A stretch of 64,000 nt of DNA. It comes from Williamsia sp. GTDB lineage: Bacteria; Bacteroidota; Bacteroidia; Chitinophagales; Chitinophagaceae. The stretch covers positions 1-64,000 of the forward strand of contig JADCRZ010000036.1 in the NCBI GenBank assembly GCA_015069695.1, given 5' to 3'. Positions 31,036-53,287 of this stretch are shown one piece after another. The position numbers and the translations under genes were made by a program. A model generated the notes under the pieces. That model was given only the letters and a program-made list of their open reading frames with translations, was not told the origin of the DNA and made no database searches. Every line of letters starts with the position of its first letter. Within the stretch, counting starts at the first letter, position 1.

Positions 31036-31100
31036 AAGTATATATTTGGAATAAAATTATTTCAATCTGTCCGGTTTTGGTGTCACACCAAGGGATAATT

Positions 31101-31132
31101 TTTGACCAAGTGGGGGCGGGGACTTATTTTTG
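31101..31132 (+). promoter_or_regulatory. Predicted promoter of the his operon
   Basis: TTTG at 31101-31104 and TATTTTTG at 31125-31132, 20 nt apart, match the Bacteroidota consensus fully. The predicted start, near 31137-31139, is only a few nucleotides before the leader peptide ATG at 31142. Confidence 0.85.
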
Positions 31133-31141
31133 CGCCGTATT

Positions 31142-31183
31142 ATGAAAAGGAGCCATCATACACATTTGTTTGCGGAAACCTAA
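31142..31183 (+). CDS. Histidine operon leader peptide
   Basis: A 13-codon frame encodes MKRSHHTHLFAET with three His codons in a four-codon stretch (CAT CAT ACA CAT). It starts just after the promoter and is followed by the attenuator hairpin before hisG. Ribosome stalling at the His codons when charged tRNA-His is scarce would be expected to prevent terminator formation. This is the arrangement of classical his attenuation, although sequence and length differ from the enterobacterial peptide. Confidence 0.8.
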   Translation: MKRSHHTHLFAET

Positions 31184-31217
31184 GGGTAAGCATTTGTATA
31201 TGATTCTGTTGATACAC

Positions 31218-31250
31218 AAGGGCTGACCAAAAATTAGCCCTTTTATTTTT
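31218..31250 (+). terminator. Attenuator terminator upstream of hisG
   Basis: AAGGGCT (31218-31224) pairs with AGCCCTT (31236-31242) and is followed by a T-rich run up to the hisG ATG. A competing pairing, TGTAT (31195-31199) with ATACA (31212-31216), lies between leader peptide and terminator and could be part of an antiterminator. Confidence 0.8.
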
Positions 31251-31251
31251 T

Positions 31252-32106
31252 ATGAAACTCAAGATAGCCATTCAAAAGTCAGGTCGTTTGTATGATGATT
31301 CCATTCTCTTGTTAAAAGAATGTGGCATCGGCATTTCTCACCGGCCCAACCAGCTAAAAACCGAAGCAAGCAATTTTCCGTTGGAGATATTTTTTCTGCG
31401 GGACGATGACATCCCGCAGTATGTGGAAGATGCGGTAGCCGACATCGGGGTGGTAGGGGAGAATGTGGTTTTTGAAACAGAGAAACAGGTTGATGTGGTA
31501 GAAAAGCTGGGCTTTGGCCGCTGCCGTTTATCTATTGCTATCAACCGGACCGAAACCTATACAGGTGTCAGCTCAATCCATGGCAAAAGGATTGCAACCA
31601 GCTACCCGGTACTGGTTAAACAATTCCTGCAAAGGAATGGGGTAGAAGCAGAGATCCATGAGATCAGTGGTTCCGTAGAGATCGCGCCGGGCATAGGATT
31701 GGCAGATGCTATCTGCGACCTGGTGAGCAGCGGCTCTACCCTGCTTACAAACGGATTAAAGGAAGTAGAAACCATCCTGCAATCCGAGGCAGTGCTGATC
31801 CGCAACCTTCATTTAGACCCGGAACAAATAAAATTGCTTGATAAGCTGCTGTTCCGCATCAAAGCCGTTAAAAAAGCGAGGAACAACAAATACATCCTGC
31901 TGAACGCGCCCAATCACAACCTGCAGAAAATTGTTTCCCTGTTGCCTGGTATGAAAAGTCCGACCGTAGTACCGCTGGCCGAGCCAGGTTGGAGCAGCGT
32001 ACATAGTGTGCTCAACGAAAACGAGTTTTGGGAGATCATCGAAAAATTGAAAGAAGCAGGTGCCCAGGGCATCCTGGTTGTGCCGATCGAAAAAATGATT
32101 TTGTAA
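31252..32106 (+). CDS. hisG: ATP phosphoribosyltransferase, long form
   Basis: First enzyme of histidine synthesis, joining ATP and PRPP. 284 residues, the long form whose C-terminal ACT-like domain (about 210-284) binds histidine for feedback inhibition, so no HisZ is needed. Motifs are KIAIQKSGRLYDDSILLLKECGI at the start, and the PRPP loop GIGLADAICDLVSSGSTLLTNGL near 165-185. The ATG follows directly on the attenuator T-run, so expression depends on readthrough. Confidence 0.97.
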   Translation: MKLKIAIQKSGRLYDDSILLLKECGIGISHRPNQLKTEASNFPLEIFFLRDDDIPQYVEDAVADIGVVGENVVFETEKQVDVVEKLGFGRCRLSIAINRTETYTGVSSIHGKRIATSYPVLVKQFLQRNGVEAEIHEISGSVEIAPGIGLADAICDLVSSGSTLLTNGLKEVETILQSEAVLIRNLHLDPEQIKLLDKLLFRIKAVKKARNNKYILLNAPNHNLQKIVSLLPGMKSPTVVPLAEPGWSSVHSVLNENEFWEIIEKLKEAGAQGILVVPIEKMIL

Positions 32107-52926: not shown

Positions 52927-53059
52927 GGTTTAGATCATTTAAATTGTTGCATTGATAGAATAAGTATAGGGTGATACGGATGGCATTCCTGAAATGTTAC
53001 AAAATGGAAGATTTTTTTTAGAGAGTTCTTATCTTCGCAGCGGTTTACACATTTATCAG

Positions 53060-53140
53060 ATTCCCGGGGTGCTGAAGGCAATGCCAACGGCTGAGATCAA
53101 ACCCGTAGAACCTGAACAGGGTAATGCCTGCGCAGGGAAG
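53060..53140 (+). promoter_or_regulatory. TPP riboswitch (THI element)
   Basis: The aptamer core is intact: CGGGGTGC at the 5' side, GGCTGAGATCAAACCCGT, GAACCTGAACAGGGTAATGC and CTGCGCAGGGA; TTCCC (53061-53065) and GGGAA (53135-53139) close the P1 stem. Downstream, GGTAGCCGG (53140-53148) can pair with CCGGCCTACC (53226-53235), a possible expression platform. It implies repression of the following receptor by thiamine pyrophosphate. The remaining leader to 53287 shows no gene. Confidence 0.94.
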
Positions 53141-53287
53141 GTAGCCGGTTTCCTTATTTTCTTTACTTCTTTCCGTAGCACAAGCATTTCTCCTTTTTAC
53201 TGTGGCAGAACCAGTGCGTGGTTTGCCGGCCTACCAGCCAGCAGCAAGCCTTGCAGTCCATTTTGTGTACCATAAAAATTTAGACCT

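Follow-up and report, generated by a model that had tools for sequence, protein, structure and literature searches.

The 64 kb window, the whole stretch of DNA analysed here, contains the histidine biosynthesis genes hisG, hisD, hisC and bifunctional hisB, all four of which exceeded the NCBIfam cut-offs. The closest named relatives of its hisG belong to Chitinophaga and Sediminibacterium, with identity of 78–79%. An earlier note on this DNA had placed a complete attenuator just ahead of hisG; promoter, His-codon peptide, competing hairpins and terminator do occupy 31101–31251, with hisG adjoining, and they are collected in Table 1. For comparison, we assembled a set of 99 his leaders, which consists of the window leader and the leaders of 98 of 100 loci. 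The promoter of the window fits the Bacteroidota consensus TTTG/TAnnTTTG, as given in the accessible text of PMC7366714, and 9 nt lie between the G of its -7 element and the peptide ATG (31142). The peptide ends with TAA (31181–31183). The hisG ATG follows directly after the T-tract; the statement of the earlier note that the terminator abuts this ATG holds for the T-tract alone, since the terminator hairpin ends 9 nt short of it.

Table 1. Features of the his leader and the first structural gene in the window
Feature	Coordinates	Strand	Basis and remarks
-33 promoter element TTTG	31101–31104	+	Sequence reading; 20 nt ahead of the -7 element; TTTG similarly placed in 78 of 99 his leaders
-7 promoter element TATTTTTG (TAnnTTTG)	31125–31132	+	Among his leaders, exact TAnnTTTG in 95 of 99, one mismatch in 4 of 99
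Predicted transcription start	31137–31138	+	Promoter position and the 4–5 nt spacing of F. johnsoniae (accessible text of PMC6847099)
His leader peptide ORF MKRSHHTHLFAET, stop included	31142–31183	+	Sequence, chance test, matching ORFs in relatives
1:2 (protector) hairpin, 5′ arm holding the His codons	31155–31204	+	RNA folding
2:3 antiterminator, GGUAAGC with GCUGACC and UUUGUAU with AUACACAA	31185–31228	+	Folding, alignment
3:4 intrinsic terminator, hairpin (31218–31242) plus T-tract	31218–31251	+	Folding, covariation
hisG (ATP phosphoribosyltransferase), first of hisG-hisD-hisC-hisB	31252–32106	+	NCBIfam

The leader peptide is 13 codons in length and contains CAT at codons 5, 6 and 8, so the three His codons within four positions that had been pointed out before can be read directly. 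Under the rule used for the chance test (ATG start, 7–45 aa, at least three His in four codons), such an ORF turned up in 9 cases when 31036–31251 was shuffled 4000 times with its dinucleotides preserved; no second ORF of this kind was found elsewhere in the window on either strand. Two marks of amino-acid attenuators are present at the locus, one being a short ORF enriched in the codons of the regulated amino acid, the other an intrinsic terminator between the peptide and the first structural gene.

The relatives were the best 80 of 192 hisG loci from a scan of genome contigs; their titles name mostly Chitinophagaceae or related Bacteroidota, and some are mislabelled or unspecific. Because several loci are near-duplicates (L043/L086, L063/L070 and L064/L067), the locus counts are not independent of each other. 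Peptide conservation in relatives had been set as a test beforehand, and a His-rich leader ORF was found upstream of hisG in all 80 relatives. In 75 of them the ORF, with at least three His in six codons, lies at most 450 nt from hisG; in the other five (L045, L053, L057, L076 and L080) it starts 596–704 nt upstream, with an inserted gene between. The terminator motif GCTTA is similarly widespread, being present in 95 of the 99 leaders and in 79 of the 80 named-collection loci; the exceptions are L024, L100, L101 and the window itself, which has the variant GCTGACC. When 118 genomes were drawn from across the phylum, a hisG match was obtained in 103, and 41 of 67 of their upstream regions contained a His-rich ORF (at least three His in six codons), part of which, being long or loosely His-rich, may be chance products. 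For a distant form of HisG (about 30% identity), none of the 10 upstream regions in this draw had one.

The inserted gene of L045, L053, L057, L076 and L080, which is placed between the terminator and hisG, looks like a mobile cassette. In L053 it matches the NCBIfam family GxxExxY, and the other four are alike by eye, with a shorter frame in L080. It lies between inverted ends, TCTGAAC...GATT on the left and AATC...GTTCAGA on the right. In four of the five loci the latter overlaps the start codon of hisG, and HisG starts with MVQ in all five.

Four to seven His residues are present in 96 of the 98 leader peptides other than that of the window, and three in the remaining two; the window peptide, with its three, is therefore an unusual, divergent copy. 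Typical peptides of the relatives are MITNKHTHHHHHILPQG or MINQLHIHHHHFLPIG, and the single available relative of the same genus has MKLYTHIHHHYR. The enterobacterial his leader peptide resembles peptides of the HIHHHH or HHHHH type. The description of the window peptide as unlike the enterobacterial one was thus misleading: the usual peptides of the relatives (HIHHHH, HHHHH) do resemble it, and the window copy is the odd one.

The leader RNA (31137–31250) folds more stably than its shuffles, with a z of -3.24 and 1 of 200 shuffles as stable; for the part before the terminator (31137–31216), z is -2.57, again with 1 of 200 shuffles as stable. In the predicted 1:2 helix, residues 31155–31173 pair with 31186–31204, and the antiterminator and the terminator have energies of -12.1 and -11.6 kcal/mol, respectively. 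The pairings were followed in alignment A1, which holds 80 of the 99 leaders. The other 19 (L012, L013, L024, L027, L028, L032, L035, L050, L051, L060, L066, L075, L078, L079, L088, L096, L099, L100 and L101) had been removed by eye beforehand, either for a peptide frame that extends into segment 2 or beyond it or for a deviating or distant leader, so the percentages of pairs describe the regular form only. In A1, 96.8% of the terminator cells are paired and 6 of the 11 pairs have changed on both sides; cells with such changes number 51 compared to 15.6 in shuffles, a value that 0 of 500 shuffles reached. In the antiterminator, 96.4% of the cells of the nearly invariant core are paired, compared to 66.4% in the outer part; for the 1:2 helix the figure is 80.7%. 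Neither the antiterminator nor the 1:2 helix has covariation beyond shuffles among these 80 leaders. As the excess is confined to the terminator, it is the terminator that covariation backs, whereas the 1:2 and 2:3 pairings are backed by conservation and complementarity; the covariation check proposed beforehand for the his leaders came out in favour of the former and not of the latter two. A third mark of attenuators, an antiterminator that is mutually exclusive both with the terminator and with a protector hairpin overlapping the regulatory codons, is present by prediction and conservation, without covariation of 1:2 and 2:3. Together with the leader ORF (80 of 80 relatives) and the terminator motif (79 of 80), the competing hairpins bear out the histidine attenuator that had been proposed, and we are highly confident that the hisGDCB operon is headed by a ribosome-mediated transcription attenuator of classical anatomy.

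For the window leader, we infer transcription start, translation, stalling and histidine response as follows. RNA polymerase would start about 5 nt ahead of the peptide ATG, and a ribosome would load at the 5′ end almost once the AUG emerges. With plentiful charged His-tRNA, the ribosome would reach the stop codon and cover segment 2, whose GGUAAGC lies just past the stop, and the 3:4 terminator would form. With scarce charged His-tRNA, a ribosome stalled on the His codons would cover segment 1, and segment 2 would be left to pair with segment 3; as segment 3 is the 5′ arm of the terminator, this 2:3 pairing would let transcription proceed into hisG. If no ribosome were loaded, 1:2 would form and the terminator would be favoured again.

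These states were modelled with a ribosome footprint, reaching 12 nt beyond the A-site codon, in which the RNA was kept unpaired, and the score was the probability that upstream RNA ties up the 5′ arm of the terminator while its 3′ arm is still unmade. The medians over 99 loci were 0.70 for a ribosome stalled at the first His, 0.66 at the last His, 0.08 at the stop and 0.23 without a ribosome, and the first-His value exceeded both the stop and the no-ribosome values in 96 of the 99. The window gave 0.68, 0.68, 0.06 and 0.50 for the same four states. Against the model speak the 0.50 of the window without a ribosome and, in the relative of the same genus, the likeness of the values without a ribosome (0.72) and with a stalled one (0.71). 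When the spacer was shuffled, the stalled median fell to 0.39, and the real value was the higher one in 91 of 99 loci. At equilibrium, the terminator is favoured in every ribosome state, with medians of 0.97–0.99 (0.80–0.82 in the window) and with values above 0.5 in 92–98 of the 99 loci, depending on the state. The switch must therefore be kinetic and would need co-transcriptional timing, on which known attenuators rely. The His-rich peptide and the switchable hairpins very likely allow the bacterium to switch on its histidine-making genes upon a shortage of histidine.

No Rfam family reached the gathering score at the attenuator locus in the window. With E up to 10, the region 31050–31300 gave four weak unrelated matches only, and RF00514 (His_leader), the attenuator of the enterobacterial his operon, was not among them, nor did it reach the gathering score anywhere in the window; by these tests the locus does not belong to that family. 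A protein- or metabolite-sensing riboswitch or a repressor site, to which the peptide would be incidental, is hardly credible: we found neither supporting evidence nor a relevant Rfam match at the locus, and the His-codon runs have been kept where the remaining peptide varies.

Our own covariance model, R1, which was built from the leader alignment, gave one match in the genome of the window at E ≤ 0.01, which is the window leader, itself a training sequence. Across 23 genomes, 16 matches were listed, 10 of them before hisG; nine of these 10 are training sequences and one (G004) is from outside the training. The other six, with E of 0.0016–0.005 and one of them antisense at a hisG, look like noise. 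No hisG-linked R1 match was obtained for G002, G024 and G031, which do have hisG. The window scored 37.9 bits, the lowest of the 10 hisG-linked matches, compared to 63.5–93.5 for the others. This low score, the three His codons compared to four to seven in 96 of 98 others, the altered peptide end and GCTGACC instead of GCTTACC are what a degenerate attenuator would leave, one that has lost most of its His codons and whose hairpin has become a constitutive terminator or a relic. We consider such decay unlikely, since the window still forms all three pairings (1:2, 2:3 and 3:4), the pre-terminator RNA keeps its stability (z -2.57), and the stalled, stop and no-ribosome states are still distinct (0.68, 0.06 and 0.50).

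According to the accessible text of PMC6847099, transcripts of Flavobacterium johnsoniae start 4–5 nt from the -7 element; the window transcript is therefore predicted to start at 31137 or 31138, with a leader of 5 or 4 nt. That the peptide starts only a few nt from the predicted transcription start, as had been suggested for the window, is supported by promoter position in the 99 his leaders. For these we counted d, the number of nt from the G of the -7 element to the first in-frame ATG; L102, which has no His ORF, was omitted. The median d is 10, with 18 leaders at 6 or less, 62 at 7–15 and 19 above 15; 75 of the 99 are at 12 or less, and 16 have a d of 4, for which a leader of 0 nt is therefore predicted. 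Among the named-collection loci, 65 of 80 have d ≤ 15. When one locus per genome was taken from the 22 genomes with hisG in the relatives set, 15 had d ≤ 15, all of them in fact ≤ 10, and four had 16–20; L097, L098 and L102 gave no value.

The control genes, 928 in number and each coding for 120 aa or more, came from 2.2 Mb of DNA, most of it from Chitinophagaceae; they include many hisG and other genes of the fetched loci and are not a random genome sample. An exact TAnnTTTG preceded 106 of them, compared to 50.9 in shuffles, so about half of these are chance. In 24 of the 106, d was ≤ 15, with 7.5 expected from shuffles. The excess falls at d 4–6 (15 observed, 1.3 expected), a class that the promoter position marks as probably leaderless, and at d 16–40 (53 compared to 12.6), which would be a second class; d 10–15, where many his leaders fall, is a trough (2 observed, 2.7 expected). 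The proportions with d ≤ 15, 80 of 99 his leaders versus 24 of 106 controls, differ with a Fisher p of 2e-17, which is uncorrected for the shared ancestry of the leaders. When both promoter boxes were required, 9 of the 928 controls were left, none with d ≤ 15, compared to 64 of 77 his leaders (p 1e-6). In the phylum sample, d was obtained for 35 of 67 regions, with a median of 19 and 23 values above 15; the short distance is therefore not a phylum-wide trait.

The 19 his leaders in which box and ATG are over 15 nt apart, like the median of 19 in the wider phylum, would suit a his attenuator on a leadered RNA, whose transcription starts further upstream and does not use the near -7 box. For the window this seems improbable to us, given that its TTTG and TAnnTTTG are well spaced, with 9 nt from the latter to the ATG, and that the box is similarly close in 80 of the 99 leaders, with an exact TAnnTTTG in 95. 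Where mRNAs were measured elsewhere in the phylum, only a minority are leaderless or have a short leader: the accessible texts give 5.5% leaderless mRNAs for Flavobacterium psychrophilum (PMC9723704), about 3.7% of mRNA leaders under 10 nt for Bacteroides thetaiotaomicron (PMC7366714) and 13% of leaders at 10 nt or less for F. johnsoniae (PMC6847099).

Two other amino-acid genes were compared in the same manner. The trp set comprises the 14 best-scoring of a longer list of loci (L250–L263), and all 14 have a Trp-rich ORF upstream of trpE, with WWWH in 12; upstream of pheA, a Phe/Tyr-rich ORF was found in 13 of 15 loci (L310–L323 among them). A terminator-like hairpin follows all 27 leader ORFs, each scoring above 20 shuffles. 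The start codons are mostly 4–9 nt past the -7 box, and d by the automatic rule is ≤ 15 in 9 of 14 trp leaders and 12 of 13 pheA leaders. In five of the 14 trp leaders the automatic choice of the -7 box gives d ≥ 28; in three of these (L251, L253 and L256) a weaker box can be seen by eye 7–10 nt before the ATG, and the counts keep the values of the rule. In the genome of the window, d is 9 for pheA and 5 for trp with a one-mismatch box, the latter becoming 7 with CATATTTG as the box. Judged from promoter positions, the trpE and pheA leaders mostly agree with the his leaders on a near-5′ start. The chances are about even, in our view, that leader peptides of Chitinophagaceae his, trpE and pheA start as a rule 0–8 nt from the RNA 5′ end, and that ribosomes working without Shine-Dalgarno contacts load on the nascent tip and catch up with the polymerase in time; near-leaderless starts would then serve the family to synchronise the two for attenuation.

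With regard to known systems, a 2004 comparative survey reportedly mentions Bacteroidetes. Like the enterobacterial his attenuator, the window leader combines a His-codon peptide with mutually exclusive hairpins and a terminator ahead of the first his gene. It departs from that attenuator in its sequence, which has no Rfam match, in a start codon that lies some 5 nt from the predicted 5′ end of the RNA, and in belonging to a phylum with mRNAs without Shine-Dalgarno sequences (accessible text of PMC6847099). Leaderless attenuator peptides, which likewise begin at or beside the RNA 5′ end, are described in the accessible texts for Streptomyces lividans (PMC8079986) and for trpL of Sinorhizobium meliloti (PMC7298713). 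These belong to other phyla and other operons, and several of the Streptomyces cases are without a clear intrinsic terminator (PMC8079986). A leaderless attenuator peptide is also discussed for the ilvBNC leader of Corynebacterium glutamicum in the accessible text of PMC11857589, and leaderless polycysteine ORFs of mycobacteria are, by its title, the subject of a 2020 paper cited in PMC13236596. In the same phylum, leader-peptide attenuation, the same mechanism as proposed here, is reported before amino-acid operons of F. psychrophilum (PMC9723704); the accessible text, tables aside, names no his leader and no 5′ distance of leader peptides. Among the matches listed in our search, with supplements and most subscription papers outside its scope, we found no publication on near-leaderless attenuator peptides in Bacteroidota, and there is no such case in the accessible texts of PMC2965389, PMC4833913, PMC4046766, PMC11857589, PMC13236596 and PMC10272879. 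As far as this search shows, the description of his leaders in Chitinophagaceae and the near-5′ start common to three unrelated attenuators are new. The his leaders form a well-conserved attenuator family, missed by the Rfam models in the window, in a phylum with mRNAs that lack Shine-Dalgarno sequences; the distance from promoter to start codon provides a testable point, namely how such ribosomes get onto the nascent leader in time for attenuation, and the short native leaders are on offer for measuring near-leaderless initiation.

Some further candidates were noticed. An Ile/Leu/Val-rich ORF, MILFLRITLVISTIQAV, lies before leuA in the window (6985–6932, minus strand); among 13 relatives none showed a clear counterpart of it, and it was set aside. 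At a similar place, L231 has a Val/Ile-rich ORF. Upstream of homoserine dehydrogenase, 5 of 14 regions have an ORF by the rule, and four of the five ORFs are Thr/Ile-rich; short ORFs of the latter kind, such as MSATTTITITTP, occur at L328, L329, L335 and L336. The window also contains a TPP riboswitch at 53055–53156, which scores above the gathering score.
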